Below are positions 14,621 through 32,744 of a stretch of 38,419 nt of DNA, in pieces. The stretch comes from a virus. The translations under genes and the position numbers were made by a program. The notes beneath the pieces were generated by a model. It did not search any database. It worked only from the letters and a program-made list of their open reading frames with translations, and had not been told where the DNA came from. How positions within the stretch are numbered: position 1 is the first letter of the stretch; the number at the start of each line of letters is the position of its first letter. The stretch lies in the IMG/VR virus record IMGVR_UViG_3300047455_000125, positions 1-38,419 of that record, one strand, 5' to 3'.

Positions 14621-16555
14621 ATGAGTTATAAACTAAACAAAACCAACGGTGAACTATTAGTAGACTTAGTAGACGGTCAGCTTGACACTACTAGTACTGA
14701 TATAGCACTAGTTGGTCGCAACTATAAAGGTTACGGAGAAGCAATTAATGAAAACTTAATTAAGATGCTTGAGAACTTTGCTAAAACTAGCGCACCTGGT
14801 GCACCTCTTGTAGGCCAACTTTGGTACGATACAGCAGAGCAACGTTTAAAAATTTATACTGGCGAAACATTTCGTTCAGCCGCAGGAGCAGTTGTTAGTC
14901 AGTCACAACCTAACTTAGTAGCAGGCGACCTGTGGATTGATAGTTTAAATAACAAACTTTACTTTTTTGACGGTAGTGATATTGTATTAGTAGGTCCGCA
15001 GTATACAGCAAGCCAAGGCAAAACTGGTACAGAAGCGTTTACAATACTAGATACTAATGGTCAAGACCAAACAGTTTTATACTTATATATTAACGGACAA
15101 TTAAACGGTATATATTCAAGAACAGAATTTAGACCAAGAGTTAATATTGTAGGATTTCCCGTAGATCCAGATGATAATAGAGTACCAAAAAGACAATTAA
15201 TTCGTATTGGATTTAATCCAGCTAGTACTAGCTTTTGGTTTAGAGGCACAGCAACATCATCAAGAGGTTTGATTAGTGACGCTGGAGAAGAATTTACTGA
15301 AGCAAACTTTATGAAAACTGTCGGAGATACTAGTACTACTGGCAGTATAGCAATTAAAAATTCTTTAGGCCTTACTGTAGGTGTTAGTGATACAGTCTAT
15401 GCAGCACTAAGAGTTGATGTTGATGATAGTTATCTAACTATATTAGAAACACAGCGACTAGAAAGAGACTTTACTATTAGAACACGTAGAGGAAACTTAT
15501 TTGATAATGCATTTTATGCAGATTCAAAAAACAAGCGTGTTGGCATTTATACATCGGCACCAACAGTGGATTTTGATGTAAACGGCGATGCAAGAGTTAC
15601 AGGTGATCTTGAAGTTGAAGGTAACTTAACAATTCAAGGTGATACAACTTATTTGAATGTATCCAGTTTGCGTGTAGAAGATAAAAACATTGAATTAGGA
15701 TTATTAAATGATAGTGCAATTGGCGATGATACAGTTGTTGATGGCGCCGGCGTAATTATTCGTTCAACAGATGGTAATAAATCATTAACTTGGGAAGTTG
15801 AAACAGGAAACTGGACATCTAGTGAAGATTGGGATCTAGAAGTAGGACACACATATAAGATTAATGATAGAACATTGCTTTCATCAAACAGATTGCATGA
15901 TGATATTTTATATGCTGAAGGATTAATACAAGTAGGTAGCTTGTCAAACTTAACAGTAGTAGGCGATGTTAATATTGCTAACAATTTAAACTCTGCTAAC
16001 GCTCTTAATATTACAAGTAACGGTACAATAACAGTTAATACACAATTAATCCAAGGAGTTTCTACTCCAATTAGTAAACGTATTGCTGATAATACAGGCG
16101 GAAATGAAGATTTAGACAGTAGTGTAGCAACAAAAGGATATGTTGATGTAGAAATTAGTGCAGAACCAGTTGTACTAACATTTGATGCTACTGGATTTTC
16201 AAATCCGTCAGCAGTATTTTCTGACAATATTGGACCGCATGAAGATATTAAGGATGCATTAGAATACTTATATCCAGCATCGCAAAAAGCGAACGGCACA
16301 GATGCAAGAGTTTTTGCAACTTCTTATATAAGTGCAACAGTTACAGGAATTAATATTAATGCAGCAGCAGTTAAAACAACAGCTAATGTATATGTTGATC
16401 CTGATGATAGTACTACACCAGAATTTGACAGTGTGTTAAAAGATATTTCGTTTAATCCTGTTACTGGTAATGCGAACTTGTCGCCGGCAAGAGCAAAAAT
16501 AGATTTTAAAGTGGTTGCCGGAGTATGGCAGTGGCAGCGTACCACACCAGTTTAA
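14621..16555 (+). CDS. Tail fibre protein, second member of the shared-N-terminus family
   Basis: The protein has 644 residues. Its N-terminal 135 residues parallel those of its two neighbours: LVGRNYKGYGEAINENLIKM, LENFA, GQLWYDT, a second W-D repeat and VLVGPQY. This is read as the part that attaches to the virion. The shaft holds RVGIYTSAPTVDFDVNGDAR and left-handed-looking repeats (GDLEVEGNLTIQGDTTYLNV), followed by the ATKGYVD motif common in fibre proteins near their distal domain. The last 120 residues resemble no domain I know and may be the variable receptor-binding tip. No collar domain is present. It starts two bases after the previous stop, with GAGGG at 14611-14615 and a 5-base spacer. 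Confidence 0.8.
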   Translation: MSYKLNKTNGELLVDLVDGQLDTTSTDIALVGRNYKGYGEAINENLIKMLENFAKTSAPGAPLVGQLWYDTAEQRLKIYTGETFRSAAGAVVSQSQPNLVAGDLWIDSLNNKLYFFDGSDIVLVGPQYTASQGKTGTEAFTILDTNGQDQTVLYLYINGQLNGIYSRTEFRPRVNIVGFPVDPDDNRVPKRQLIRIGFNPASTSFWFRGTATSSRGLISDAGEEFTEANFMKTVGDTSTTGSIAIKNSLGLTVGVSDTVYAALRVDVDDSYLTILETQRLERDFTIRTRRGNLFDNAFYADSKNKRVGIYTSAPTVDFDVNGDARVTGDLEVEGNLTIQGDTTYLNVSSLRVEDKNIELGLLNDSAIGDDTVVDGAGVIIRSTDGNKSLTWEVETGNWTSSEDWDLEVGHTYKINDRTLLSSNRLHDDILYAEGLIQVGSLSNLTVVGDVNIANNLNSANALNITSNGTITVNTQLIQGVSTPISKRIADNTGGNEDLDSSVATKGYVDVEISAEPVVLTFDATGFSNPSAVFSDNIGPHEDIKDALEYLYPASQKANGTDARVFATSYISATVTGININAAAVKTTANVYVDPDDSTTPEFDSVLKDISFNPVTGNANLSPARAKIDFKVVAGVWQWQRTTPV

Positions 16556-16562
16556 CAAAACA

Positions 16563-16570
16563 GATAAATA
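16563..16570 (+). promoter_or_regulatory. Candidate T4-type late promoter (GATAAATA)
   Basis: GATAAATA lies in the 40-base gap between two fibre genes and ends 25 bases before the ATG at 16596. It is identical to the octamer at 11893. The Shine-Dalgarno AGGGG follows at 16584-16588. Confidence 0.5.
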
Positions 16571-16595
16571 CTAAGTCGCACATAGGGGTTTATAA

Positions 16596-18173
16596 ATGGC
16601 ATATACAATAGATACATATAGTAACAGTAGATCATGGAAAATTGAAGATGGTACTGTTGATCAGACTACTGATTTAAAATTAGTAGGTAAGAATTACGCA
16701 GGTTACGGTGAAATACAAAACGAAAACATGGTATTTTTGCTGGAAAACTTTGCAGGGCAAACTGAACCGCCAAGAAAGATTTCTGGGCAAATTTGGTTTG
16801 ATACTGGTAACAGTAAATTAAAATTTTATGACGGCATTAAATGGCGCACAACAGGTGGCGCCGAAGTTAGTTCTACAGTTCCAACAGGCCTTAAAGAAGG
16901 CGATTTTTGGTGGGATCAAGACAATGAACAACTTTACACATATAATGGCGGTGATTTTGTACTTATCGGACCCCAGAGTGCAGGATCAGGCCAAACACAG
17001 ATTGTAAGCCGTTCAGTTCGCGACAATACAGGATCAAGCAGAGGTATTATTACTGCCGTTGTAAATGACGAAGTTATATTTACAATAAGTTCGCAAGATT
17101 TTACTATTGATAGTGCAGATGTTGATTCAAATATCTTAGGCTTTGACAGAATACGTCAAGGTATTACCCTAAAGAATACACTAAACGGAAGCGGTGGCGT
17201 TACATCGGGCGATTGGAGACTAGTAGGAACAGCTACTAACTCAGAAAAATTAGGCGGATTATCATCTACATCTTATGTATTAAAAACAGATGCTAACTTT
17301 AGTCAATTAGCTCGCTTCTCAGACTTAGGTATTGCGATTGGCGATTCTAATGATTTAAAAATTAAACAAGAAATTATTACTGGCAACGGTACACAAGTAG
17401 AACGTCCGATAATTGCAAACGAAACAGGCGGATCTATTGCGTTTAAAGCTAAAAATAACTCAGGCGTTGTTGTTAACTCTTTACAAGTATTGTCTACCGC
17501 AGTTATTCCTGGCTACGTTAATGGTACAGAAACACAAAATAAGCCAACAGCAACACTTACAACCATGGGAACAGAACAATATCCATGGGAGACAATGTTT
17601 GCAAAAGAATACGTAGGTTTAGGTGTTGCAGCAACTGGCTTAGTATTAGCCGATGATGTTGATGCATATGTGTTTGATTTTACTAATGGTACTGAACCAC
17701 CAGCTAGCTTGTTAAGAAAACCAAGTAAGGCTGCATCTCCAAACACTGTAGTTGTAAGAGATCAGAATAGTGACATTTATGCAAACTATTTTCAAGGTAT
17801 TGCAACTGAAGCATTATATGCTGACCTTGCAGAAAAGTATACTACAGATGAAGAATATCCAGTTGGTACAGTAATGGCAATTGGTCAAGACGAAGCAGAA
17901 GCAACTAAAGCAATGCGTGATACTATTGCAATTGGCGTTATATCAACTGCACCTGCATATCTAATGAATAAAGACTGTGACGGGCAAGCAATCGGCTTAA
18001 AAGGCCGTGTTCCTGTAAGAGTTATTCGTCCAGTTAGAAAAGGTCAAGCAGTATATGTTGATGATAACGGATGTGCAAGCACAATGATTAATGGTGGCTG
18101 CTTAGTAGGTATAGCACTTGAAACTAATCAAGACGATGACGAAAAATTAGTCGAGTGTGTATTGAAAGTATAA
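16596..18173 (+). CDS. Tail fibre protein, third member, with an autoprocessing-like C-terminal domain
   Basis: The protein has 525 residues. Residues 1-130 repeat the family domain (LVGKNYAGYGEIQNENMVF, LLENFAG, GQIWFDT, VLIGPQ). The C-terminal 120 residues begin YADLAEKYTTDEEYPVGTVM and continue through IAIGVIS, GRVPVRVIRPVRKGQAVYV and GIALET. This pattern resembles the C-terminal domains of many phage fibres and is similar in outline to Peptidase_G2-type intramolecular processing or chaperone domains; I did not identify a catalytic residue. The gene has its own late-promoter-like octamer and AGGGG at 16584-16588 (spacer 7). The 18 bases around its start are identical to those around the start at 12537. 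Confidence 0.8.
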   Translation: MAYTIDTYSNSRSWKIEDGTVDQTTDLKLVGKNYAGYGEIQNENMVFLLENFAGQTEPPRKISGQIWFDTGNSKLKFYDGIKWRTTGGAEVSSTVPTGLKEGDFWWDQDNEQLYTYNGGDFVLIGPQSAGSGQTQIVSRSVRDNTGSSRGIITAVVNDEVIFTISSQDFTIDSADVDSNILGFDRIRQGITLKNTLNGSGGVTSGDWRLVGTATNSEKLGGLSSTSYVLKTDANFSQLARFSDLGIAIGDSNDLKIKQEIITGNGTQVERPIIANETGGSIAFKAKNNSGVVVNSLQVLSTAVIPGYVNGTETQNKPTATLTTMGTEQYPWETMFAKEYVGLGVAATGLVLADDVDAYVFDFTNGTEPPASLLRKPSKAASPNTVVVRDQNSDIYANYFQGIATEALYADLAEKYTTDEEYPVGTVMAIGQDEAEATKAMRDTIAIGVISTAPAYLMNKDCDGQAIGLKGRVPVRVIRPVRKGQAVYVDDNGCASTMINGGCLVGIALETNQDDDEKLVECVLKV

Positions 18174-18176
18174 ATA
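18169..18176 (+). promoter_or_regulatory. Candidate T4-type late promoter (TATAAATA, exact)
   Basis: This is an exact match to the T4 late-promoter octamer, overlapping the TAA stop of the upstream fibre gene. It ends 28 bases before the ATG at 18205 and is followed by AGGAAG at 18191-18196. It is the best of the three late-type sites here and probably drives the paralogous pair at 18205 and 19138. Confidence 0.6.
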
Positions 18177-18204
18177 TAGTAGCACTTAATAGGAAGAAGA
18201 TAAC

Positions 18205-19134
18205 ATGCCAGATTTAGTACGTGGACCCAACGATCCAAACGGAGCGTCTAAAATTACAGCAGCTAATTATAACGATTTGCAAAAAACAGTTGCGGATATT
18301 TTAGGCGATGGGTTCGCAGATACCGGATATGGACAAGAACTAGTTAGCACACCATTATTAGCAAGCGATATTGTTAGAGCAGAGCATATGAATTTGCTCA
18401 GAGATGACATTAACAGAATACAAGTTCACCAAACTGGTAGTCTTAGTTCGTTATTAGAATTAACACCAGGTGAAAAAGTTAGTGCTAATGATATTAATGG
18501 TGTAGTTGATAAAGGGTTTAATCAATTTGTTGCTGTTGTTAATATTTTAGAAGCAAATAAAGCTGTAGTTGACGGAACTCAAGTAACACTAGAAACTGCA
18601 ACTACTAGTACACGTTTTGCAGCGTGGAACGGTAAAGTAGTACATAGTTTTACAGCTACCTTTGATGATGCAGATCATAGACGTGCATTCTTTAATGCAG
18701 GCGGACAAATACATATGAGCGCAACAATTGAAGGTGATAATACTGCTAAAGGCGCTGACTGGAATACTATATTAACAAATATGGGAACAATTAAGTTTAG
18801 TGCTACTACTACTGAAAAAACTGGTAGTGCTGGATTGCTACAACCTATCGGAAATAACGACTTAACAACAAGTTATCAAAAAATATTCGAACGTAGAGGT
18901 CAAGCAGATTATTATGCAGAAAATAGATTCTTTATGTATGCTAAAGAAACTAGCAATCGAGCAATTCAGTTCAGCATTGAATTTGAAGATAACGATGTAG
19001 GTGATCCTAATGATGACGAACTTATCCGCGGAACTCTAACTAGCGTTGTTAAACAATTAAGACCTACTGGATCATATGTAAGTGTTAAATCTCCTGCCTA
19101 TAGTACACAATCAGACATATCTGAAGGAGATTAA
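18205..19134 (+). CDS. Phage structural protein, first of a tandem paralogous pair
   Basis: The protein has 309 residues. The N-terminal third carries ITAANYNDLQKTVADILG, GDGFADTGYGQ, and then LRDDINRIQVHQTG, a pattern shared with the next gene. The second half has DHRRAFFNAGGQIHMSATIEG, DWNTILTNMG, TSYQKIFERRGQADYYAEN and a Glu/Asp-rich FEFEDND-like strand, again matching the downstream paralogue block for block. It has no membrane segment or enzyme motif. Its position after the fibres and a late promoter suggests a virion or fibre accessory component; the precise role is unknown. The start is set by AGGAAG at 18191-18196. Confidence 0.65.
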   Translation: MPDLVRGPNDPNGASKITAANYNDLQKTVADILGDGFADTGYGQELVSTPLLASDIVRAEHMNLLRDDINRIQVHQTGSLSSLLELTPGEKVSANDINGVVDKGFNQFVAVVNILEANKAVVDGTQVTLETATTSTRFAAWNGKVVHSFTATFDDADHRRAFFNAGGQIHMSATIEGDNTAKGADWNTILTNMGTIKFSATTTEKTGSAGLLQPIGNNDLTTSYQKIFERRGQADYYAENRFFMYAKETSNRAIQFSIEFEDNDVGDPNDDELIRGTLTSVVKQLRPTGSYVSVKSPAYSTQSDISEGD

Positions 19135-19137
19135 TTT

Positions 19138-20241
19138 ATGGCAGTATCAGTTGGCGATTTAGTCGATAACACCGATTACACAGGGTTAGTTGACAGAGTA
19201 AACGCTGTCTTAGGCAACGGGTCGGGTCAAATAGGATACGGACAAGTTGTTAATTCTGCTCAAAGCTATAAAAGCATAACTTCAACTAATACAATTTCAC
19301 CTGCAGAATGGAATTCGTTAAGAACTGACATTAATAAGTGTACAGTTCATCAGACTGGTGCTAATTCTGGCATTAGTACTATTGCTTCTACACATATTAT
19401 TGGCGCAAATGCTACTGGAACTACTGTTACTAGAGTTTCAGGAGATACCTTTAGTATTGTTTCTCCTGACAATGATGAAGGATTTAACGATTTTGATACA
19501 TCAGTTGGACTATTAGAAAGTAGATCAGGACAGATTGCAGCAGGCCAATTTGATTTAACAACTGGTAGAGTTTTCGGAAACTCGGGTAGAACAACACAAT
19601 GGGGTGTTAATACTATTAACCCTATGATATTTACTGAACTGGTTGTAGAATTCGAAGGCGGATATAGTACAACAGATTCTAGTGGAAACAGTTACCAAGC
19701 AACTGGACCGGATCATCGTAGACATTTTTTTAATGCTGGTGGTGAAATCCGTTTAAGTGCAACACTTAGCGGTTCTACAGAAAAGGATACAGACTGGGGA
19801 ACAATGCTAGGCAATATGGGACAAGTTGTATTTGGAAAAAACGGAACATACTTGTCAACAGGCGGATCAGGAAGAGCTAGAGATGGTAACACTGATGTTG
19901 ATGGCGCAGGCGGCATTGAAAGTGCGTTAGGTAACTATCAGTTAAGTACAGGATATCAAATCATATTTCAAAAGAATGGATCACAAGCAGAATATGCAGA
20001 AAACTATGTTGTGATTTATGCTAAAAGAAATAGTGCAAACACTAGAATTACGTTCTTATTTGAGTTTCACGATATCGACTCTGGAGACCAAACAGGTATT
20101 GGACCTAAAGTTGACGAACCTGTATTTCAAAACGGCGGCAGTATGCAAGCAGGAATAGATTTAAAACGTCCCAACGATGCGGCTGCTGTAAATATCCCAG
20201 AACCATTATTTGAAGTAGTAACTGAACTTCGTCTCACATAA
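19138..20241 (+). CDS. Phage structural protein, second of a tandem paralogous pair
   Basis: This 367-residue paralogue of the preceding protein shares GYGQVVNSAQ, LRTDINKCTVHQTG, DHRRHFFNAGGEIRLSATLSG, DWGTMLGNMGQVVF, TGYQIIFQKNGSQAEYAEN and the FEFHDID strand. It is about 58 residues longer through insertions after HQTGANSG and around a Gly-rich loop (GGSGRARDGNTDVDGAGG). The pair probably arose by tandem duplication followed by divergence. AAGGAGA at 19124-19130 sits 7 bases before the ATG, just inside the end of the upstream gene. This is the last gene of the structural block; the next gene has its own sigma70-type promoter. The function is inferred from context only. Confidence 0.65.
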   Translation: MAVSVGDLVDNTDYTGLVDRVNAVLGNGSGQIGYGQVVNSAQSYKSITSTNTISPAEWNSLRTDINKCTVHQTGANSGISTIASTHIIGANATGTTVTRVSGDTFSIVSPDNDEGFNDFDTSVGLLESRSGQIAAGQFDLTTGRVFGNSGRTTQWGVNTINPMIFTELVVEFEGGYSTTDSSGNSYQATGPDHRRHFFNAGGEIRLSATLSGSTEKDTDWGTMLGNMGQVVFGKNGTYLSTGGSGRARDGNTDVDGAGGIESALGNYQLSTGYQIIFQKNGSQAEYAENYVVIYAKRNSANTRITFLFEFHDIDSGDQTGIGPKVDEPVFQNGGSMQAGIDLKRPNDAAAVNIPEPLFEVVTELRLT

Positions 20242-20244
20242 CAC

Positions 20245-20273
20245 TTGACAAATTCCCTAGATGACTATATACT
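20245..20273 (+). promoter_or_regulatory. Near-consensus sigma70 promoter for the accessory operon
   Basis: TTGACA at 20245-20250 and TATACT at 20268-20273 are separated by 17 bases, the optimal spacing. Transcription would start near 20280, leaving a short leader with GGAGG at 20286-20290 before the ATG at 20296. Such host-type promoters are used for early transcription in T4-like phages, in contrast to the late octamers of the virion genes upstream. Confidence 0.75.
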
Positions 20274-20285
20274 ACTAATATAGTC
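20263..20285. promoter_or_regulatory. Perfect inverted repeat over the -10 element and start site: possible operator
   Basis: GACTATAT (20263-20270) and ATATAGTC (20278-20285) are exact reverse complements separated by a 7-base loop. The repeat covers the -10 element and the predicted start, where a repressor would block RNA polymerase. An RNA hairpin is less likely because transcription should begin inside or after the loop. Confidence 0.5.
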
Positions 20286-20295
20286 GGAGGAATTT

Positions 20296-20643
20296 ATGGA
20301 CGAACGCTTAGAAAAAGCATTAGAGTTTTCAAACTACATGGTTACATTAAATAATCAACGTAGGGTTATTCACGAACAATTCTTAGAAAGCTGTGTACAT
20401 TATCTTAACGGTGGTAAGTTTTCAGTTAACAAAGATCTTATAACATTTTGCCATACCTTAATTAATAGTGATCAAACTAGTGCAGTTATTATTGATGATA
20501 ACAATACTCCAGTTAATGTAGAAGACCTACAGCAATTTTTAGATGATATCTTAAATATTTACTTTACAACGTCATACGAATATTTAGACAAGTATAATGA
20601 AATTAAAAAGAACAGAACAGTTAAAGGTCTTGTTGATCTATGA
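20296..20643 (+). CDS. Small conserved phage protein of unknown function, 115 aa
   Basis: The product is acidic and predicted to be largely helical. It begins MDERLEKALEFSNYMVTLNN and ends KKNRTVKGLVDL, with a central stretch VIIDDNNTPVNVEDLQQFLD. I recall similar small proteins from T4-like phages of aquatic bacteria but know no function for them. There is no Cys pair, membrane segment or nucleic-acid-binding motif to suggest one. It is the first gene of the accessory operon, with GGAGG at 20286-20290 and a 5-base spacer, and its stop overlaps the next start as ATGA, so it is translationally coupled to the first glycosyltransferase. It is not Gly-rich and has no obvious leader-core shape, so a precursor-peptide role is unlikely. 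Confidence 0.7.
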   Translation: MDERLEKALEFSNYMVTLNNQRRVIHEQFLESCVHYLNGGKFSVNKDLITFCHTLINSDQTSAVIIDDNNTPVNVEDLQQFLDDILNIYFTTSYEYLDKYNEIKKNRTVKGLVDL

Positions 20644-21500
20644 GCAAAGGTGTTTTACTCTTTGCACAAAATAATCATTCAGTTGATTACATTAAACAAG
20701 CAATTTTTTGTGCAAAAAAAATTAAAAAACATTTAAACCTTCCTGTGGCTCTTGCTACAGACAACTCTGATTATCTTAAAACTAATTTTCCGTATTACGA
20801 AAAATACATTGAACATGTAATAGAGCTAGACTGGTACGAATGTTCTCAAAAAAGAACGTATCGTGACGGAACAATGAGTAAGCGTGATCTTGAATGGCGC
20901 AATCACGATCGTGCTACAGCATATGATATTACACCGTTTGACGAAACTATTGTAATGGATACTGATTTTATTATTGGTAATGATATATTGTTAAATGCAT
21001 TTAACACAGATCAAGATTTTTTAATATTTAGGCATATTACAGATCTAAATATGGATAGACCTGATGAATATCGATTTAATAAGATTAGCGATAGAAGCGT
21101 AGATATGTATTGGGCTACAGTTTTTTATTTTAAAAAGACAGAAAGTATGAAATTATTTTTTGATCTTATAACACATATTAAACAAAACTGGAACTTTTAT
21201 AGACTTACATATCAAATTGCTAATAAAACTTATAGGAATGATTTTGCATTTAGTATAGCAATTCATATATTAAACGGATTTCAGAGAACCAATTGGCCTA
21301 AAACATTGCCAGGCAGACTATGGTTTACTAGTGACGCAGATGTATTAATTAAAATGGATAATGAAAGTTATACATTTCTATTAGATAAGAAACACTGGGT
21401 AGGACATTATCACGTAGGAACAGTAAAAGATGTAAACATTCATATTATGAATAAATTTGCATTAGATAGATTTATAAACGAGGACTTAGTTAATGAATAA
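20640..21500 (+). CDS. Putative GT-A-type glycosyltransferase, 286 aa
   Basis: This is predicted to transfer a sugar from a nucleotide donor in the cytoplasm. The N terminus, GVLLFAQNNHSVDYIKQA, is the first beta-alpha unit of a nucleotide-diphospho-sugar transferase fold. An aspartate pair TIVMDTDFI at residues 107-109 fits the DxD metal and nucleotide-sugar site. The C-terminal GHYHVG around residue 254 may provide the second metal ligand, as HxxG-type histidines do in GT8-like enzymes. The next gene is a diverged tandem paralogue with the same opening (LLAQNN, DY.RQA). Its ATG overlaps the previous stop. Family-level function is plausible; donor and acceptor are unknown. Confidence 0.65.
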   Translation: MSKGVLLFAQNNHSVDYIKQAIFCAKKIKKHLNLPVALATDNSDYLKTNFPYYEKYIEHVIELDWYECSQKRTYRDGTMSKRDLEWRNHDRATAYDITPFDETIVMDTDFIIGNDILLNAFNTDQDFLIFRHITDLNMDRPDEYRFNKISDRSVDMYWATVFYFKKTESMKLFFDLITHIKQNWNFYRLTYQIANKTYRNDFAFSIAIHILNGFQRTNWPKTLPGRLWFTSDADVLIKMDNESYTFLLDKKHWVGHYHVGTVKDVNIHIMNKFALDRFINEDLVNE

Positions 21501-22335
21501 AGGTTTTTGTTTACTTGCACAAAATAATTCTAAAACAGATTATGTCCGCCAAGCATATGCACTTGCACTAAGTTTACACTTGTATAATAACGATCAAAAA
21601 ATTAGTTTAATTACTAATGATATTGTGCCCAAAGAATGGCAAAGCGTGTTTGATCAAATCATTCCTATTCCGTGGACTGATAGTGCAGAAGACAGCGAAT
21701 GGAAGATCGAAAATCGCTGGAAAGTATATCATGCTAGTCCGTATGATGAAACTATTGTATTAGAAGCTGATATGTTAATTACTAGTGATATAACGCATTG
21801 GTGGGATGAATTAAGCAAACAAGATTTATTCTTTGTAAGCAATGTTAGAACTTATAGAGACGAAGTAATAACTAATAGATTTTATAGAAAAACTTTTGAT
21901 GCTAATGAATTGCCTAATTTATATAGTGCATTGCATTACTTTAAAAAAGGTGATACTGCAAAAGAATTTTATAATCTTCTTGAAATTATTGTAAACAACT
22001 GGGCATTATTTTATTCTAAGTATGCTCCTAATGAATATCAGAAATGGTGTAGCATTGATTTATCTGCTGCTATTGCAAGTAAAATATTAGGTAATGAGCG
22101 TGATATAACTAATCCTAACAGTTTTATTACGTTTACACATATGAAGCCATTAATACAGGGTTGGTATAATAAACCTGAAAAGTGGACGTCTGTCCTTGGA
22201 AAATATTTTACTGATGAACACAATTTGTTTTTAGGAAATTATTTACAAACTAGAGTATTGCATTATGTAGAAGATAGTTTTTTAACTGACGAATTAATAG
22301 AGAAATTAGAAAATGGAAAAACACTTTTATATTAA
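21493..22335 (+). CDS. Putative GT-A-type glycosyltransferase, paralogue of the preceding gene, 280 aa
   Basis: It has the same fold as its neighbour: GFCLLAQNNSKTDYVRQA at the N terminus and YDETIVLEADMLI at residues 84-95. Here the first Asp of DxD is Glu (E91-A-D93), a conservative change that may still bind metal or may alter donor choice. HYFKKGDTAKEFYNLL parallels the FYFKKTESMKLFF stretch of the paralogue. It overlaps the upstream gene by 8 bases and its own end overlaps the next gene by 23 bases. CGAGGA lies just upstream of the ATG. The EAD variant is the main reason for caution over catalysis. Confidence 0.6.
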   Translation: MNKGFCLLAQNNSKTDYVRQAYALALSLHLYNNDQKISLITNDIVPKEWQSVFDQIIPIPWTDSAEDSEWKIENRWKVYHASPYDETIVLEADMLITSDITHWWDELSKQDLFFVSNVRTYRDEVITNRFYRKTFDANELPNLYSALHYFKKGDTAKEFYNLLEIIVNNWALFYSKYAPNEYQKWCSIDLSAAIASKILGNERDITNPNSFITFTHMKPLIQGWYNKPEKWTSVLGKYFTDEHNLFLGNYLQTRVLHYVEDSFLTDELIEKLENGKTLLY

Positions 22336-22891
22336 CTTTCGAGAAGAAACTGGTGAAATATGGAAGCTAACAAATGAGTTAGATACTTCGACACCATATG
22401 TTGAAATTGATCGTGAAATGATGTTAGACTTTGCAGAAGAGCGAAAAAAGATGGATGACTATGTAGTTGTCCCATCTAGCGATAAAACATTAAAATACGA
22501 AGTTAAATTTAAACACAAAGATTTAGCAGAATTCGATGTTGATAAAAGTGTACACAGATTACCAGTAATTACAACAGTTGATACAAATAATGCATTTTTA
22601 ATTAAACAAAATTTAACAACAGGAAGTTGGACAGTAAGTTTAACTTTAGAACTTAGAGAGTTATTATCAAGTACATTATATTATAAAGATAAAAGTCAGG
22701 TAATTTACATTACGCAAAAAGATAATCCTGCGGTATTATTAGACACACTTGATATTAAGATGTACAACATATTATATTCAGATAGCTTTGAATTAACTAC
22801 ACAAGATATAAAGGTTGCAAAAAACCCTAATGTGAGTTTATACTGTGGTAAAGCATTTGAGAATTATTTTCATATTCAGGAGACAGCATGA
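22313..22891 (+). CDS. Hypothetical protein, 192 aa
   Basis: I do not recognise a function. The protein is rich in Lys, Asp and Thr and looks beta-rich, opening with HFYINFREETGEIWKLTNEL and ending with GKAFENYFHIQETA; the central part alternates hydrophobic strands and turns (SWTVSLTLELRELL). There is no membrane segment, signal peptide, Cys cluster or nucleotide-binding motif. The opening resembles small uncharacterised proteins of T4-like phages. The start lies within the end of the upstream glycosyltransferase gene and has only a weak GAGA-type ribosome site, so coupled translation is likely. AGGAG at its end serves the next gene. Confidence 0.6.
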   Translation: MEKHFYINFREETGEIWKLTNELDTSTPYVEIDREMMLDFAEERKKMDDYVVVPSSDKTLKYEVKFKHKDLAEFDVDKSVHRLPVITTVDTNNAFLIKQNLTTGSWTVSLTLELRELLSSTLYYKDKSQVIYITQKDNPAVLLDTLDIKMYNILYSDSFELTTQDIKVAKNPNVSLYCGKAFENYFHIQETA

Positions 22892-23796
22892 GCACTATTA
22901 AAGTAGTTGACCAGGATATTATTTTCTTGTCGTACGATGAACCTAACGCTGAAAAGAACTATGCAGACCTGTGTGCTAAAGTGCCGTGGGCTAAACGTGT
23001 ACACGGAGTCGAAGGTAGCGATGCTGCACACAAAGCATGTGCCGATCTAAGTGAAACAGAATATTTTGTAACTGTAGATGCTGACAATATTGTCGATCCA
23101 GAATTTTTAAATCAAGAAGTTGATTATGAAAGTTTAGGTCTGACTGCAAATCATGTGTTTAGTTGGTGCGGAAAGATTCATGTCAACGGATTAATGTATG
23201 GCAATGGTGGTCTTAAAATGTGGACACGTAAGTTTGTACACAGTATGAAGACACATGAGAACAGTGAGGACGGCGATGAGCGAGGAAAAGTTGAATTCTG
23301 CTTCGACGACAAGTATTACCAGTTTAACGAGAACTACAGCGTATCTTATACTAATGCGACACCTTGGCAGGCTTGGCGGGCTGGCTTTAGGGAAGGCGTT
23401 AAAATGAGCTTAGATAGAGGAGCTAAAGTATCTGACTTGCGTAAAGTGTGGTGGCAAAACTATCAACGATTGCTTATTTGGAGTCAAGTAGGTGCAGATG
23501 TAGAAAACGGTCTTTGGAGTGTATTAGGTGCTCGTCAAGGGTGTTATATGACAAACTGTACAGATTGGGATTATGCTAATGTACGCGACTTCGAATGGTT
23601 AAACAATTTTTGGGAAAACGAAGTTAGAAGTAGTATTGACAGCGAACACGAAGTATATGATGAATGCGAACGTCTAGGACTTGAAATCCTTAAAGGTACA
23701 GGTGTAGATATTGACGTTGCTCCATTAAGTGCAGGTCAGAGTAAGTTTTTTAAGACAGTATATCAAAATACTCCAAGGATTATTAGATCTCGATGA
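22888..23796 (+). CDS. Glycosyltransferase-like protein, 302 aa
   Basis: The N terminus DIIFLSYDEPNAEKNY resembles the first strand and loop of GT-A glycosyltransferases, and TVDADNIVDPEF at residues 62-73 gives a DAD (64-66) metal and donor site. A second copy of this family is encoded at 32751, sharing KR..GV.G....H.A, VDAD, NGLMYGNGGLKM-like (NDLVYGYGGVKLL) and RDFEWLNNF-like blocks. This copy extends about 60 residues beyond the point where the other ends. AGGAG at 22878-22882 lies 5 bases from the ATG, which overlaps the upstream stop as ATGA. It is immediately followed, with an ATGA overlap, by a radical SAM gene, and the paralogue has a radical SAM gene in the same place. Confidence 0.6.
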   Translation: MSTIKVVDQDIIFLSYDEPNAEKNYADLCAKVPWAKRVHGVEGSDAAHKACADLSETEYFVTVDADNIVDPEFLNQEVDYESLGLTANHVFSWCGKIHVNGLMYGNGGLKMWTRKFVHSMKTHENSEDGDERGKVEFCFDDKYYQFNENYSVSYTNATPWQAWRAGFREGVKMSLDRGAKVSDLRKVWWQNYQRLLIWSQVGADVENGLWSVLGARQGCYMTNCTDWDYANVRDFEWLNNFWENEVRSSIDSEHEVYDECERLGLEILKGTGVDIDVAPLSAGQSKFFKTVYQNTPRIIRSR

Positions 23797-25175
23797 GCAA
23801 CGAACAGCGTATACAGATACTTGAAGAAAAACGTGAAAAAATTAACAATGTAAGTTGTAGTTTTTGTACAGCTAAATGGCTACAAACAACGTTAATGCTA
23901 CAAAACGGATATAATCATAGTTGCCATCATCCTGCACCACATAAAATACCTTTAGAAGAAATTGCAGCAGACCCTGCTGCATTGCATAATAGTAAGTTTA
24001 AAAAAGAACAACGAGCTAAAATGCTCGATGGTGAGCGTCCTAAAGAGTGTGACTACTGCTGGAATATTGAAGATTTAGACAAAAATTACTTTAGTGATAG
24101 ACATTACAAAACATCAGACACTTGGGCTTGGGACAGATTTGATGAAATTGCTACATGTGATCCTAATAAAAATGTATACCCGAGTTATTTAGAAGTTAGC
24201 TTTAGTAATGCATGTAATTTTGCGTGTGCTTATTGCTCACCTGAAATCAGTAGCAAATGGATGGAAGATGTAAAGCAACATGGTCCTTACCCTACTAAGC
24301 ATGGTGCTCATCATTTAGACTACTTGGAAAAAACAGGTAAGATGCCCTATAAGAATAGAGAGCATAACCCATATGTAGAAGCATTTTGGAAATGGTTCCC
24401 AGACGCACTTCCGCATTTAAAAGTATTGCGCATTACAGGCGGCGAGCCTACAATGTCAAAAGATACTTGGAAACTATTAGACTATCTATTAGAAAATCCT
24501 CAAAAAGGTTTAGATGTTGCTATTAATACTAATGCATGTGTTGAAAATAAACTTATAGATAAATTAATTGAAAAAGTTAATAAACTTGCACAAGTAGGAG
24601 TAAAGGTAGACATTTACACTAGCCTCGAAAGTACAGGTGCGCAAGCAGAATATGCAAGAGATGGGTTGCAATATGGCAAGTGGTTAATAACTGTAGATAG
24701 ATTATTAAAAGAAACAAACTCAACAGTTGCTATAATGACTACTATTAATATGTTAAGCCTACCTAGTTTTATTGATTTTATGATGCTAGTTATGGACTTT
24801 CGAAAAGAATATAATAAAACATTCGAAGTTAACAGAATTCCGTTAAGCGTAAACATAATGCGCTGGCCACCACATTTGCAATGTACACTATTAGATACAG
24901 ACTATCGTATAAAAACAGCAAACACTATTGAAAAAGTTTGCGAGCAATGGTTAAAGTATTACACTAAAGAAAAATATGCTAGGTTGTATCTAGAAGAGTT
25001 TGATCAGATAAAAAGATTTTGTGACTATTTAAGAACATCAGAACCAGCAATAGAGCATAGACAGGACTTTGTACGATACATACAAGCGTACGATAAAAGA
25101 AGACATAAAAACTTTGCGGACACATTTCCGCAATATGAACATTTAATAGAGGAATGGAATGCCAAAGAAGCCTGA
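23793..25175 (+). CDS. Radical SAM enzyme with N-terminal auxiliary-cluster domain, 460 aa
   Basis: The radical SAM core is clear: C141-x3-C145-x2-C148 (ACNFACAYC) binds the [4Fe-4S] cluster that cleaves S-adenosylmethionine, and GGEP is at 216-219. Before the core, residues 22-89 hold C22, C25, C44 and the pair C86/C89 (ECDYC), laid out like a SPASM or twitch auxiliary cluster but placed N-terminally. From memory, NCBI names a family of N-terminal twitch radical SAM proteins with this order. The C-terminal third (SVNIMRWPPHLQ, YDKRRHKNFADTFPQYEHL) matches the next gene. The substrate is unknown: enzymes with auxiliary clusters mostly act on peptides, some on sugars. The start overlaps the upstream stop (ATGA). 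Confidence 0.85.
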   Translation: MSNEQRIQILEEKREKINNVSCSFCTAKWLQTTLMLQNGYNHSCHHPAPHKIPLEEIAADPAALHNSKFKKEQRAKMLDGERPKECDYCWNIEDLDKNYFSDRHYKTSDTWAWDRFDEIATCDPNKNVYPSYLEVSFSNACNFACAYCSPEISSKWMEDVKQHGPYPTKHGAHHLDYLEKTGKMPYKNREHNPYVEAFWKWFPDALPHLKVLRITGGEPTMSKDTWKLLDYLLENPQKGLDVAINTNACVENKLIDKLIEKVNKLAQVGVKVDIYTSLESTGAQAEYARDGLQYGKWLITVDRLLKETNSTVAIMTTINMLSLPSFIDFMMLVMDFRKEYNKTFEVNRIPLSVNIMRWPPHLQCTLLDTDYRIKTANTIEKVCEQWLKYYTKEKYARLYLEEFDQIKRFCDYLRTSEPAIEHRQDFVRYIQAYDKRRHKNFADTFPQYEHLIEEWNAKEA

Positions 25176-26607
25176 AGAAAATTTACAACAGTACCGTGAT
25201 AGAGTCTTAGATAGTAAAAGTAAGAGTTTCTGTGGTGCTAAATGGTATAATGCAACAACATGGCTAGGTAGTGGTACTACTGCTAGTTGTCACCATCCAC
25301 CTGCACATAAAATTCCTATTGTTGAAGTAGAAGCAAATCCAACAGCAATCCATAATACTGAGCATAAAAAAGAAATGCGCCGTATGATGCAGAATGGAGA
25401 ACGTCCACGTGAATGTGAATACTGTTGGAAAATGGAAGACATGGGTAAAGATGCAGTAAGTGATAGAACATTTAAAAGCATCATCTATACTGATGACGAA
25501 TTACAACAAGCATATCAAGCAGACGCAAACGAAAATACTAACCTCAAGACGTTTGAAATTGCATTTGATAGAGTGTGTAATCTTGCATGTTCATATTGTA
25601 ATGCTAGTTTTTCAACTACATGGGCTAAAGATATCAACAAAAATGGTCCTTATGAGAATCTAGTAAGTGATGGCGCAGGAGCATTTCATCAAAATGGTGA
25701 TTGGGCCCAACCGTATAAAAACGATGAGGACAATCCTTACATTCAAGCATTTTGGAAATGGTGGGATAACGGTCTAAGTGACAGCTTGCAAGAACTACGT
25801 GTTACAGGTGGCGAACCTTTGATGAGCGGAAACACTTGGAAATTGTTTGATTGGTTTAATGCGCAAGATACTAATATGAGATTTGCTATCAATAGTAATC
25901 TTATTGCTAAAGATGATATCATTGATAAGCTAATTGACAAAACACAAGGCATGAAACACTTTGATTTGTACACTAGTTGTGAAGCAGTTGGTGCTCAGGC
26001 TGAGTATATACGTGACGGACTTGATTACGAGTTATGGTTAAAAAACATTAAACGTATGCTAACAGAAGGAAATTGCAATGGCATCAATATTATGATGACC
26101 ATTAATAGTCTTTGTTTGTTTAGTATAACAGAATTTTTAGATGAAGTATACAAACTTAAAGAGCTTACACAGAGTAGAACTCCTACAGTAAGTGTTAACT
26201 TATTGCGTTTTCCTAGTTTTCAAAGCCCGTTAGCATTACCTAATCATATCAAAGATCATTGTCATGCTAATCTAAGCACCTGGTGGGAAGCAAACAAGCA
26301 TAAAGAAGGTTGGCACGAATTTGAAAAGGCAAGTATTGAACGTTTGATAGATTATCTTGTTACAGTAGATGCTCCGCATAGACGTACAAGTAACCCTGTA
26401 ACACTATGGCGCGACTTTAAAACATTTTATGCACAGTATGACAAGCGCCGAGGAAAAGACATCAATGTGTTTCCTGCAATTTTAACTGATTGGATTAACA
26501 GTATACCTAACACAGATATTGAAATACAAGAATTAGCAGAAAAAGAAGGTTGGATACTAAAACCAGATCCTAGGAATATTGATGATCCCCTTGCGTCCTA
26601 CGATTAA
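25159..26607 (+). CDS. Radical SAM enzyme with N-terminal auxiliary-cluster domain, tandem paralogue, 482 aa
   Basis: The core motif is C140-x3-C144-x2-C147 (VCNLACSYC), with GGEP at 217-220. The auxiliary cysteines C25, C44, C86 and C89 fall at exactly the same residue numbers as in the preceding protein, and CHHP.AHKIP and RPRECEYCW are shared, so the two are tandem duplicates. This one has about 20 additional residues at its C terminus (NTDIEIQELAEKEGW). Two related enzymes side by side could act on two positions of one substrate or form a heteromer. The start is set by AGAGGA at 25148-25153, 5 bases before the ATG, and overlaps the upstream gene by 17 bases. Confidence 0.85.
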   Translation: MPKKPEENLQQYRDRVLDSKSKSFCGAKWYNATTWLGSGTTASCHHPPAHKIPIVEVEANPTAIHNTEHKKEMRRMMQNGERPRECEYCWKMEDMGKDAVSDRTFKSIIYTDDELQQAYQADANENTNLKTFEIAFDRVCNLACSYCNASFSTTWAKDINKNGPYENLVSDGAGAFHQNGDWAQPYKNDEDNPYIQAFWKWWDNGLSDSLQELRVTGGEPLMSGNTWKLFDWFNAQDTNMRFAINSNLIAKDDIIDKLIDKTQGMKHFDLYTSCEAVGAQAEYIRDGLDYELWLKNIKRMLTEGNCNGINIMMTINSLCLFSITEFLDEVYKLKELTQSRTPTVSVNLLRFPSFQSPLALPNHIKDHCHANLSTWWEANKHKEGWHEFEKASIERLIDYLVTVDAPHRRTSNPVTLWRDFKTFYAQYDKRRGKDINVFPAILTDWINSIPNTDIEIQELAEKEGWILKPDPRNIDDPLASYD

Positions 26608-27937
26608 TCTGTATTACGATAAAATTATAGATGAAATGCCTGTACCAAATGGCATTTCATCTTACGACTTCAGTAATGACATACGTAGAATTCCATTAAA
26701 TGCTGATAAGAATTCTCCTTTTGATGTTACTACAGTATTGTTTAACGTATTAAAAGTCTTAAACGTCGAACGTGTTAATTTATTCTCAGGAAATGAAACA
26801 GCAAGTAATCTCTTTTATCCTTTAGATTTAAATAAAGGCACATCTTGGTATAATGTTGAATTTGAAAATCATATACCTGCAAAAGTTATTTCTAAAATTA
26901 GAAAAGGTAAGATGAAATTACTAATTTTTGCACCAAGATTATCTCACGATTACAGAGTGTTATGGAAATTAAGAACTCAACTTGATAAACTAGTCACCAA
27001 AGGAATAACTAAAGACAAAATTTATATTGTTTTAGGAGATCTTAATCGTGCATATCGAAAATTATTTGATAATCCTAATGTTTATGGTATAGATTGGTGG
27101 CAAATCTTTGCACAATTAGCATACAATAGCAGATACGGTATTAATGATACACATTGGGCATTTAGAGATCCGTCTTTTTATCTGCTGTCAAGTGATGAGT
27201 ATGAAAAAGAAAACTTTCAATTTGAAAATTGGAATCCAACACGAATTTTTACAGGGTTTACTGGTAATACTGCTACTCATAATACTGCTCTTATTAGCGA
27301 ATTGATATATAGGCAGTTAGATTCGTTTGGAGAGTATAGTTATAATTTAGAAAATAAACTTATACCTAGAGAACATGATAATTTTAGAATAATTGACAAA
27401 ACACAAGGTGAGGAATATGCTGCTAAAAAGCAAGAAATTATTTCTACCTTAACTTATGTTAAAAAAATAGATTATAATTTTAGTACATTAAAAAGAACTC
27501 CGCTAGTAGTTGACAAAAAACTCTACGAAGACAGTCTTATTAGCATTGTTAGTGGTTCGTATTCGCCTATGTTTGATAAATCATATCTAGATGAAATTAA
27601 TGTATTATCACCGGGGTTAGGTATATGGCGACAAATAGCCAAAGGACACCCCTTCATGGCACTAGGTTGTTTAAATACTATGGGATACGTAAGTGGCGAA
27701 GGATACTTTTTACCTACGCCAATTACAAATCAGTTTTATGATAGAGTCTCAAAGACAACACAAAAAGTTAAACTAATGTGTAACAGTATTGAACTAATGA
27801 CGCAGTTTAGCACACAAGAAATAAAAGATAAAGTAGAAGAATTGATTCCGTTTATGGATAGAAACAAGCAAAAGTTTTTTAATATGAAACATCAACGTAA
27901 GTTTGAAAAACTTTTTAGTGAGATGAAATATGAATGA
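26582..27937 (+). CDS. Possible GT-B-like glycosyltransferase, 451 aa
   Basis: The N-terminal 300 residues contain alternating strands and helices (KMKLLIFAPRLSHDYRVLW, KIYIVLGDLN) consistent with a Rossmann-like domain. Residues about 319-377 carry the block SLISIVSGSYSP, then LGIWRQIAKGHPFMALG, then GYVSGEGYF. This resembles the conserved EKT-x-K-P-I...PF(I/M)..G...L...G(F/Y) motif of exostosin- and GT10-like glycosyltransferases and related phage proteins. The Glu-Lys-Thr part is not conserved, so function is uncertain. An in-frame TTG lies at 26579, but AGGA at 26572-26575 is 6 bases from ATG 26582, which I prefer. It overlaps the upstream gene by 26 bases and lies between two radical SAM genes. 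Confidence 0.5.
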   Translation: MIPLRPTINLYYDKIIDEMPVPNGISSYDFSNDIRRIPLNADKNSPFDVTTVLFNVLKVLNVERVNLFSGNETASNLFYPLDLNKGTSWYNVEFENHIPAKVISKIRKGKMKLLIFAPRLSHDYRVLWKLRTQLDKLVTKGITKDKIYIVLGDLNRAYRKLFDNPNVYGIDWWQIFAQLAYNSRYGINDTHWAFRDPSFYLLSSDEYEKENFQFENWNPTRIFTGFTGNTATHNTALISELIYRQLDSFGEYSYNLENKLIPREHDNFRIIDKTQGEEYAAKKQEIISTLTYVKKIDYNFSTLKRTPLVVDKKLYEDSLISIVSGSYSPMFDKSYLDEINVLSPGLGIWRQIAKGHPFMALGCLNTMGYVSGEGYFLPTPITNQFYDRVSKTTQKVKLMCNSIELMTQFSTQEIKDKVEELIPFMDRNKQKFFNMKHQRKFEKLFSEMKYE

Positions 27938-29195
27938 TGATTTAAAAAATAGTCCCGGATTTTGCGTAGCGCCTTGGATGCACTTGCATGTTATTAACGA
28001 TGGCAGGTCGTTTGCGTGTTGTCAGACTCCTTTGCGTGAAGAAAATAGTTTTGGTAATGTTAAGCATCAAAAACTAATTGACGTAGTTAATAGCGATCGA
28101 GCAAAGAAGATGCGTAAAGATATGCTAGACGGTAAGCCATTGCCTAGTGCGTGTGAACGTTGTGTATCAAAACAGCAGAACAATTTAAACACAATGCGAA
28201 CTGGGTTAAACAGTAAGTGGTTTGATGAAACTAAAGATCTAATTGCTAGCACAGCAGACGATGGCAGTATACCAGAATTACAATTAAAGTATTGGGACTT
28301 CCGTTTTAGTAATTATTGCAATCTTGCATGTACAACGTGCTCGCCTCTGTTCAGTACACAATGGTCAAACGATTTTCAAAAGCTACATCCTGGTGCAGAC
28401 AAGTACAGTGACACAAAACTTATTGATCTAAAAGAAGCAAACGTATTCTGGGAAGACATTGAAGAAAATCTTGAAACAATGAAAGAAATACACTTTGCAG
28501 GCGGTGAACCTTTGATTATGCCCGAGCATTGGCGTATTCTTAAAATGCTTGATGAAAAAGAAAAGTATGATATTGATTTACGCTATAGTACAAACGGTAC
28601 CACATTAGGTAAAGGAAAAGAGAATATCTTAGATTACTGGAAGAAATTTAATTATGTTCATTTAAGTATAAGCATTGATGGTGCCGGAGATGCGTTTGAA
28701 CATATTAGATATAAAGGAAAATGGGATAGTACTTTAGAAAACCTTAAAAAGATTAGATCTAGCGGTGTAGTAGACTACTGGTTTCATCCAACTGTTAGTA
28801 TCCTTAATATATTTAGACTTACAGAGTTACACGCAGAATTGCATAAGAACGATTTAATGCCATTAGAAAGCGTACATCCTCGACGAGGGTTTTACATGGA
28901 AAATTATTGGGTAGATAGGTTTCATTTAAATCCGTTGTTTACACCTGATTACTACAGTATTACAGTGTTGCCAGAATTATTAAAAGAACAAGCAGCAGAT
29001 AAAATAACAAAGTATGGTAAGAAGTTAGAAGCTGATACAGGCATACCGTTTAGTGGCTGGCAGAACATTATAGACTTTATGTACCAACATGATAATAGTC
29101 ATTTATGGAAACAGTTTAAATGGAAATCAAAACAAATTGATGACATTCGCGATACAGATGTATTCAAATTAAATCCGGAGTTAAACAATGGCTAG
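27930..29195 (+). CDS. Radical SAM enzyme with N-terminal SPASM-like domain, 421 aa
   Basis: Residues 10-78 read like a complete SPASM motif moved to the front: FCVAPWMHLHV (C12), DGRSFACCQTP (C30, C31), FGNV, LIDVVNSDRAKKMRKDML and SACERC (C75, C78). The radical SAM core follows with C130-x3-C134-x2-C137 (YCNLACTTC) and FAGGEP ending at 194. RYSTNGT and SISIDGAG are typical strands of the core barrel. The C-terminal region (DNSHLWKQFKWKSKQIDDIR) is shared in outline with the radical SAM enzyme at 35954. Two iron-sulfur clusters are expected. It overlaps both neighbours by 8 bases, the downstream one being the SGNH hydrolase, so tight co-expression is likely. The substrate is unknown. Confidence 0.85.
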   Translation: MNDDLKNSPGFCVAPWMHLHVINDGRSFACCQTPLREENSFGNVKHQKLIDVVNSDRAKKMRKDMLDGKPLPSACERCVSKQQNNLNTMRTGLNSKWFDETKDLIASTADDGSIPELQLKYWDFRFSNYCNLACTTCSPLFSTQWSNDFQKLHPGADKYSDTKLIDLKEANVFWEDIEENLETMKEIHFAGGEPLIMPEHWRILKMLDEKEKYDIDLRYSTNGTTLGKGKENILDYWKKFNYVHLSISIDGAGDAFEHIRYKGKWDSTLENLKKIRSSGVVDYWFHPTVSILNIFRLTELHAELHKNDLMPLESVHPRRGFYMENYWVDRFHLNPLFTPDYYSITVLPELLKEQAADKITKYGKKLEADTGIPFSGWQNIIDFMYQHDNSHLWKQFKWKSKQIDDIRDTDVFKLNPELNNG

Positions 29196-30015
29196 AGGAA
29201 CTGACTTTGTACCATATCTTAGAACTTCACCTTCTAATATAAAGTCAGTTAGTGACCTCCGTGTATTCGGCAAAACACATCAGGTGTTTAAACAAAAACT
29301 TTCTTTTGTTAAACAAGGGTTTGAATTATTAGCATGTAATCAAGCAGAAGAAGAATTATTAGATCCTAAAACAGATTGGAAGTATTACATTAATGAATAC
29401 AACTTTAGGAATGAATGGGACTTAAACTCTAAAAAAGAAACAATTGGTTTTTTTGGTTGCAGCTTTACATTCGGTGAAGGTATTCATAATGACGATATGT
29501 TTGTTAATATTATTAGCGAAGCATTAGATATGAATCCTATAAATGTAGGAATGGGTGGCGCAGGATTAGAAAGAACTGTAAGAACATTTGCAGCAGCAGC
29601 TCAAGTAATTGATTTTGACTATGCAGTATTTACATTACCTGCTTGGTCGCGTCAAATGCATTTAACTCCTCAAGGGGAAATAATTAATATTATTCCGTAT
29701 TGGCCTCATCATGATTATGAAAAATTAAATCAACTGTTTACATCTGTTGATGAAGATTTTTTTATTAATCAAGCAATAACATATGTTAATTGGATAAGCG
29801 ACATAGCAAAAGCAAACAATATAAAGATAGTATTATCATCATGGGATCATCCATTAAATGAATTATGCAAATTAATGTTTCCTGAACATACAGTTAATCC
29901 TTTTCCTAATATTGATGATAAATGTGCAAGAGATAAAATGCACCCTGGACCAAAGTCTCAAGCAGCACATGCAGAGCAAGTTATAAAGGCATTTAATGAT
30001 AGAGCTTGGGTTTAG
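29188..30015 (+). CDS. SGNH/GDSL-type hydrolase or acyltransferase, 275 aa
   Basis: FFGCSFTFGEG at residues 88-98 is the block I nucleophile motif, with Ser92. NVGMGGAGLER at 119-129 fits block II, and RDKMHPGPKSQAAHA supplies the block V pair D249 and H252. A clear block III GxND is not seen, as is common in diverged members. Such enzymes remove or add acetyl or other acyl groups, often on sugars. There is no signal peptide, so it should act in the infected cell's cytoplasm or within the virion. Next to glycosyltransferases and radical SAM enzymes, an O-acetyl-sugar esterase or transferase is a reasonable guess, but the substrate is not determined. GGAG at 29177-29180 lies 7 bases before the ATG. 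Confidence 0.75.
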   Translation: MARGTDFVPYLRTSPSNIKSVSDLRVFGKTHQVFKQKLSFVKQGFELLACNQAEEELLDPKTDWKYYINEYNFRNEWDLNSKKETIGFFGCSFTFGEGIHNDDMFVNIISEALDMNPINVGMGGAGLERTVRTFAAAAQVIDFDYAVFTLPAWSRQMHLTPQGEIINIIPYWPHHDYEKLNQLFTSVDEDFFINQAITYVNWISDIAKANNIKIVLSSWDHPLNELCKLMFPEHTVNPFPNIDDKCARDKMHPGPKSQAAHAEQVIKAFNDRAWV

Positions 30016-30964
30016 AAATACAAATAATGATATTAAATATATTAATATAAAACCAGACAACAGTGAAGTAGCAAACGTCTGGTTAAGTCAACTTGACTAT
30101 CTGCTAGCAACACATAATCGAAAAATATTTCAAAAGAATTTTAGCCTATTAGGATTTCATAATAACTATAGAACTGTAGATCATATTTGCAATGACCTTG
30201 ATAGAAGTATTGCAACAATTAACTATTATAGTAAGTATAAAATAGTAGAAAATTTTGGACCTCTTCGCACTAGGTATGATCAAGAATTATTAAATATTTT
30301 ACATCATCATTTTGAAGTAATGCAGGGACAATTATGGAATCCAGGTAGTGAATTAACAACTGCTAACGGCGATACTAGACTTGCTATTTGTTATTTAAAT
30401 CATTGCTGCCATGAATTAGAAGCATGGTACGAAACTGAAAACATTCGAGATGACGGGTATACAAATGGTTACTTTTATTATAACTTACTTGGAGTAACTG
30501 AGCGTATAGAATTAGATCCAGCGTTTAAAAAAGACTTTGTTAAAGAAGTTGATGACGGATTAGTATATTTGCATTATGCACAAACTGGTAAAACTTGGTA
30601 TGAAGCATATCTAGACAATGACGATGTAGTAACAGCAGACGGCATATCAGAACATCGTGTGATTAGTGGAGAGTTTAATTGTTACTTTGGTACAGGATAC
30701 GAATTACCATCTGATGATAAGTTTACAACTTGGTTAGAGTCTAAAGGAGTAGATCCTAAAGATGAACAACTTGCATTAGGTTATGCACCTGTTGGCCGAA
30801 TACAAAATATGCCATTTAACGAAGCTATCGACTTTTTTAAAGAATATACAGATTTTTACAGCATTGAATTTAATAAAAAACGTATAGAGTATGACTTTAG
30901 ACATGCAGACACATCCTATATTAAGTTACTAACAGATATGTGGAGCAAATGGGGCCAAGCATGA
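29996..30964 (+). CDS. Hypothetical protein, 322 aa
   Basis: No family is recognised. The product is acidic and aromatic-rich. Notable blocks are LLGFHNNYRTVDHICNDLDR, a helix NILHHHFEVMQGQLWNP, CYLNHCCHELEAWYE near residue 136, and FNCYFGTGYELPSDDKF near residue 225. The cysteines do not form a radical SAM or zinc-binding pattern I can name. No membrane segment is present. The histidine- and acid-rich helix around LNHCCHELE could bind a metal, but that is speculation. The start lies 20 bases inside the SGNH gene, with AAGG 7 bases upstream, and the end overlaps the next gene as ATGA. It should therefore be made in step with the SGNH hydrolase and the next unknown. Confidence 0.65.
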   Translation: MIELGFRNTNNDIKYINIKPDNSEVANVWLSQLDYLLATHNRKIFQKNFSLLGFHNNYRTVDHICNDLDRSIATINYYSKYKIVENFGPLRTRYDQELLNILHHHFEVMQGQLWNPGSELTTANGDTRLAICYLNHCCHELEAWYETENIRDDGYTNGYFYYNLLGVTERIELDPAFKKDFVKEVDDGLVYLHYAQTGKTWYEAYLDNDDVVTADGISEHRVISGEFNCYFGTGYELPSDDKFTTWLESKGVDPKDEQLALGYAPVGRIQNMPFNEAIDFFKEYTDFYSIEFNKKRIEYDFRHADTSYIKLLTDMWSKWGQA

Positions 30965-32719: not shown

Positions 32720-32726
32720 CAACTAA
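32712..32726. promoter_or_regulatory. 15-bp palindrome over the -35 element: possible operator
   Basis: TTAGTTG-A-CAACTAA has perfect 7-base arms and a single central base, centred on the -35 element. Part of the symmetry comes free with TTGACAA, but four extra matched pairs extend it. Its sequence differs from the repeat at 20263. Confidence 0.3.
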
Positions 32727-32744
32727 TTTTAAAAGTAGTATAAT
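32716..32744 (+). promoter_or_regulatory. Exact-consensus sigma70 promoter inside the island, probably giving a leaderless mRNA
   Basis: TTGACA at 32716-32721 and TATAAT at 32739-32744 are exact consensus elements with a 17-base spacer. Transcription is expected 6-8 bases after the -10 element, at or next to the ATG at 32751, so the transcript would lack a ribosome site. Read-through from the upstream promoter may also contribute. Confidence 0.8.

Follow-up and report, generated by a model that had tools for sequence, protein, structure and literature searches.

In IS10 and IS50, mRNA that reads in from outside folds over the transposase start, whereas mRNA from the element's own promoter does not. 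This protection from outside transcription belongs to insertion sequences, whereas the locus described here is a phage operon; in the accessible text of one IS10 paper (PMC5006887), neither 'read-through' nor 'readthrough' was found. Among phages, a review describes T4 genes e, soc, 49 and I-TevI, in which the ribosome site is hidden in upstream-initiated mRNA, likewise by a hairpin over the Shine-Dalgarno (PMC3014915). For gene e, whose late promoters are so placed that mRNA begun at them starts past the 5' strand of the hairpin, it reviews experimental evidence that this mRNA translates well; the T4 cases it names are few. A paper on mobile elements of T4-like phages (PMC2988022) may also bear on insulated leaders. 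A literature search for promoters inside Shine-Dalgarno-hiding hairpins and for read-through silencing returned no sigma70 case, subscription literature lying mostly outside that search.

The window, by which we mean the whole stretch of DNA analysed, is a linear virus record of 38,419 bases (IMGVR_UViG_3300047455_000125). It contains a hairpin with a sigma70-type promoter inside, which looks like an early-type version of the T4 trick. The features concerned are as follows.

18169-18176, + strand: T4-type late promoter box TATAAATA, before ORF 18205
20245-20273, + strand: sigma70-type promoter, TTGACA at 20245-20250, a 17-nt spacer and TATACT at 20268-20273; matches the consensus and is kept in relatives
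20250-20256, + strand: AAATTCC, 5' strand of the outer stem in the predicted fold, pairing with GGAATTT at 20289-20295
20263-20270 and 20278-20285, + strand: inner stem, GACTATAT and ATATAGTC around a 7-nt loop at 20271-20277; a perfect 8-7-8 repeat whose pairing is kept while its letters change in relatives
20280, + strand: expected transcription start, the 7th nt after the -10 by spacing; own transcripts would lack the 5' arm
20286-20290, + strand: Shine-Dalgarno GGAGG, predicted unpaired at 0.31 in read-through mRNA and 0.81 in the own transcript
20296-20643, + strand: 115-aa gene, first of the block, with no Pfam or PHROG match
20640-32719, + strand: rest of the block, in which every ORF is listed with an overlap to its predecessor; four match radical SAM and the others have no assignment
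32716-32744, + strand: second sigma70-type promoter; 6 nt lie between the -10 and ATG 32751, and there is no Shine-Dalgarno

In layout, the putative insulated leader works like the T4 gene e type, and its sigma70 inner promoter makes it a variant of that type, not a member. The inner promoter of the gene e type is T4 late, whereas in the window and 37 other leaders it is sigma70-type, and the order in time would be reversed, the long mRNA here being expected to be late-type and the inner promoter early-type. Unlike the T4 cases, the hairpin heads a block of overlapping genes and is represented by 38 distinct leaders of one gene, with six more that carry TAAATA instead.

An earlier note on this DNA had described a sigma70 promoter, TTGACA-17-TATACT, with its -10 and expected start inside a perfect inverted repeat, and we confirmed the coordinates of both. 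The promoter matches the consensus at 11/12 positions and is the best of 48 sigma70-type matches in 15000-26000, a region whose shuffles gave a mean of 45.5 such matches versus the real 48. The 5' arm of the repeat extends to the third base of the -10, and the start, which we infer to lie at about 20280, falls within the 3' arm; in 29/38 leaders the seventh base past the -10 is A. GGAGG lies directly 3' of the repeat and is followed by the ATG (20296) of the 115-aa ORF. RNA from 20242 to 20310 had a predicted fold of -13.6 kcal/mol versus -7.2 for shuffles (z -3.1), in which two bases of GGAGG sit in a bulge and the end of the Shine-Dalgarno, as part of GGAATTT, enters the outer stem. An intrinsic terminator was considered and rejected: the stem is AT-rich, GGAGG stands in place of a U run, and the hairpin is absent from the terminator-like matches. 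Rfam covariance models run over 19100-21500 gave two matches far under the gathering score and none across the hairpin.

Taken alone, the window repeat is not beyond chance. The window holds 9 perfect 8-bp inverted repeats (loops 3-12) versus a mean of 7.1 (range 2-13) in 30 Markov-1 resamplings, so such repeats are common in it, and an AT-rich, self-complementary TATATA -10 could yield dyads unaided. The significance of the repeat therefore comes from the comparison with relatives and not from the repeat count in the window.

A scan with the 115-aa protein found related viral contigs, 68 in all, at 42-91% identity. Genes 20640 and 21493 have relatives in 68/68 loci, with all best hits on the same strand, and genes 18205 and 19138 in 60/68, also on the same strand, several of the loci ending early. 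On conservation, which the earlier note had proposed as a check, the flanking genes are thus kept in relatives, as is the dyad over the -10. The window and the 68 loci together gave 69 leaders, or 46 after dropping identical 60-nt leaders. A promoter matching at least 10/12 positions was found in 38 of the 46, with a 17-nt spacer in 34 of those 38. The fold, exchange, dyad-count, Shine-Dalgarno and promoter-control calculations on the 38 targets exclude the 8 leaders below 10/12, and L059 and L064 were omitted wherever a Shine-Dalgarno was needed (n=36).

For the fold test, each sequence ran from 12 nt 5' of the -10 up to the last base ahead of the ATG, and we swapped 3' halves between phages. 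The 38 native leaders folded at a mean of -7.24 kcal/mol versus -3.78 for exchanged halves, a difference that held for 26 representatives of less than 75% identity (-6.66 versus -3.63 kcal/mol), and in both sets 0/20000 permutations were as low. Native halves fold far better than exchanged ones, and therefore the arms co-evolve. The letters of the dyad vary, with pairing kept, even among relatives whose downstream proteins are 80-90% identical. In six leaders, all with a Shine-Dalgarno (L022, L033, L044, L057, L058 and L060), at least 15 of 37 exchanged halves match or beat the native one, and RNAalifold, given 15 close leaders aligned by MAFFT, returned no consensus pair, perhaps because loop lengths differ. 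From these comparisons, a conserved RNA hairpin at the leader of the 115-aa gene is very likely.

Other sigma70-type promoters served as controls. They were sought in 33/68 contigs, which gave 117 matches and, from 60 stretches, 60 distinct controls; the set excludes 29 of the 48 matches in contig G027 and two near contig ends, and one control cut off downstream (L146) was scored 0.0. Their mean fold was -3.36 versus about -7.2 for the 38 targets (p 1.7e-7). A fold at -5 or lower was reached by 10/60 controls versus 16/25 target representatives, so a stem near the -10 is not unique to the 115-aa gene, and to that extent the controls fit a chance origin. However, the exchanged halves retain the -10 yet fold much worse, and other promoters with a similar -10 fold weakly on average; we consider it very improbable that chance produced the dyads.

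The earlier note took the dyad for a repressor operator, that is, a DNA site at which a dimeric repressor, encoded by phage or host, would sit over the -10 and the start and shut the promoter. This is the usual site of repressor action, the arms form symmetric DNA, and the antisense strand too folds better native than exchanged (-5.29 versus -2.84). An operator does not, however, fit arms whose letters differ between close relatives while their pairing persists, or pairing that extends into the Shine-Dalgarno. The exact 23-mer, which the earlier note had suggested looking for elsewhere, occurs once in the window even when 3 mismatches are allowed, and folding at the 60 other sigma70-type promoters is weak on average and in 50/60 individually. 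As for the small DNA-binding protein that was also to be sought, Pfam and PHROGs recognised none among the scanned neighbours, many of whose ORFs are without assignment. The varying arms, the single site, the weak control folds and the Shine-Dalgarno pairing suggest that read-through mRNA forms an RNA hairpin, and we regard an operator as unlikely. What stands of the proposal that a dedicated switch, rather than the late program, governs these genes is that they have a strongly conserved promoter of their own, distinct from the upstream late box of T4 type; the repressor operator is not supported.

The two strands also differ. Across the 38 leaders, the sense fold exceeded the antisense fold by 1.95 kcal/mol versus 0.94 for exchanged halves (0/20000 permutations), and for the 26 representatives by 1.50 versus 0.91 kcal/mol (743/20000), which moderately favours RNA read in the sense direction. 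Ungapped dyads contained 7 G.U versus 4 A.C.

In the 36 leaders with a Shine-Dalgarno, this site was predicted to be unpaired at 0.29 in native read-through RNA versus 0.42 with foreign 5' halves (0/20000 permutations), and at 0.59 in the own transcript, which by spacing would be without the 5' strand of the helix; native read-through was the lower in 33/36. With more upstream sequence included, the read-through value was 0.23, below the own transcript in 35/36. The contrast was stable whichever base from the 5th to the 8th past the -10 was taken as the start, and its mean was stable over 15-37 C. In upstream-initiated mRNA the Shine-Dalgarno was predicted to be under 0.5 unpaired in 32/36 leaders, and opening in the own transcript is partial, 14/36 remaining under 0.5 unpaired. 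By comparison, 34 distinct gene starts that follow intergenic gaps in the upstream flanks have open sites, at 0.64, whereas 44 target leaders gave 0.24 (p 4.5e-9). Applied to T4 gene e, such a calculation gave a read-through value of 0.00 and, for transcripts from two assumed starts, 0.87 or 0.50; for soc it gave 0.31 in read-through and 0.79 in the own transcript, and the hairpin of gene 49 was also seen.

Foreign 5' halves expose the Shine-Dalgarno, so that pairing to that site seems selected. This counts against a role of the hairpin in the upstream mRNA, whether in stabilising its 3' end or as an RNase processing site between the upstream genes and the block, with the Shine-Dalgarno pairing a by-product. 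The position would suit such a role: the hairpin starts 22 nt past the end of the upstream stop codon, and in 68/69 loci an open frame on the same strand terminates 36-105 nt upstream, the 69th (L051) being a cut locus. Leaders L059 and L064, however, which have no Shine-Dalgarno, also have no stem (-1.3 and 0.0 for their short leaders), and there is no U tract for termination. We judge a role confined to the upstream mRNA to be improbable.

Hiding of the Shine-Dalgarno in read-through mRNA would require transcripts that enter from upstream. ORFs 12537, 14621 and 16596 have matches among tail or virion families, and ORFs 18205 and 19138 have no family match in Pfam or PHROGs; a single ORF of 3938 aa (81-11897) lies upstream of the tail-type genes. 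Transcripts reading into the hairpin would likely originate at the late box at 18169. ATAAATA was found in 31/35 upstream intergenic stretches on the sense strand and 0/35 on the antisense, many of the stretches coming from close relatives, and 6/7 contigs searched encode a gp55-like late sigma factor. A T4-type capsid protein was found in 4/16 contigs, all fragments. Between 18205 and 20296, a single terminator-like match was found on the sense strand, a weak one within ORF 19138. With late boxes upstream and only this weak terminator match, late transcription is expected from the sequence to continue into the 115-aa gene.

We therefore weigh the following course of events, all support for which is computational; the promoter, the dyad, their conservation, the predicted hiding and the late boxes are themselves observed by computation. 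A long mRNA from the upstream genes, begun at the late box at 18169, would carry both arms and fold, and the folded read-through mRNA would block translation of the 115-aa gene. An mRNA begun at about 20280 would start past the 5' arm and leave GGAGG free. The following ORFs overlap head to tail, and for this reason closing the 115-aa gene may, by coupling, also lower translation of the rest of the block. We infer the read-through, its timing, the coupling and the effect on the protein made, and we think it probable that the leader provides translational insulation, with read-through mRNA silenced and own-promoter mRNA translated.

Natural variants of the leader bear on this. In L059 and L064, which form one lineage on the protein tree, the ATG is the 8th and 7th base after the -10, respectively, and by this spacing both would be leaderless. 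TAAATA occurs in 6/8 leaders without a good sigma70 promoter and in 0/38 leaders with one; on the protein tree its state requires two changes, of which well-supported branches force only one. The site is still hidden in 4/6 TAAATA leaders (0.01-0.06 unpaired; L054 and L055 are near-copies) and is open in L018 and L029 (0.70 and 0.72). One might guess that the TAAATA leaders are late promoters, a label that stays a guess because TAAATA is just part of the late box. The mRNA from the second sigma70-type promoter in the window, beginning at or close to ATG 32751, would probably be leaderless, and the same layout, with 5-6 nt, was found in seven relatives (L102, L107, L109, L131, L133, L134 and L143).

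The predicted model of the 115-aa protein is confident (pLDDT 93). Its best match is an uncharacterised phage protein, followed by weak matches to DUF4376 phage proteins, and a PDB fold search with it returned nothing at E 0.001 or better. ORFs 20640 to 31754 overlap their predecessors by 4-29 nt; two of the block ORFs have TTG starts and one GTG, and some of these overlaps may be smaller. Radical SAM matches within the block are ORFs 23793, 25159, 27930 and 31754, with 25159 below Pfam's cut-off, and those after the second promoter are ORFs 33385, 34376, 35954 and 37312. The region 23793-38328 thus has eight radical SAM genes, three with SPASM above Pfam's cut-off, and contigs G003, G006, G010, G026, G027 and G030 have 12-13 radical SAM matches. 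Pelagimyophages have a variable host recognition cluster with radical SAM cassettes, as here, according to the available part of PMC7029224, a likeness in gene content. Prediction of middle and late promoters in pelagimyophage genomes is given there as unsuccessful, and that part of the paper describes no hairpin, whereas here one stands at the block start. Among cultured phages, no match was found to the DNA of the region or to the 115-aa, 302-aa and 286-aa proteins; a search with ORF 11919 did find relatives, the best in Sinorhizobium phage Phosso and Agrobacterium phage Atu_ph07.

If late transcription enters early-type genes in compact phage genomes, the time classes would be kept apart by the start point of the mRNA rather than by a regulator, and the arrangement would offer a readable signature for promoters and their timing in uncultivated phages. 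A wider rule is possible, although we hold it only tentatively: sigma70-type units behind late genes may be translated only from own-promoter mRNA, through either a start-opened hairpin or a leaderless start without a Shine-Dalgarno (32751; L059 and L064), with timing evolving by promoter exchange inside a kept hairpin. One gene here supplies natural variants by the dozen, among them exchanged promoters and leaderless replacements.

Among the other promoters, a recurring sigma70-type promoter (L127, L138 and L116) carries TAAATA in its spacer. It lies within a strong hairpin in L127 and L138 (-15.2 and -11.8) but not in L116 (-2.5), and the gene behind it may encode GTP cyclohydrolase I, to judge by eye. 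Rfam gave no match on seven promoter stretches, this promoter type included. A sigma70-type promoter also stands directly before the gp55-like gene in 4/6 contigs (G024, G026, G027 and G032; L164 and L165).
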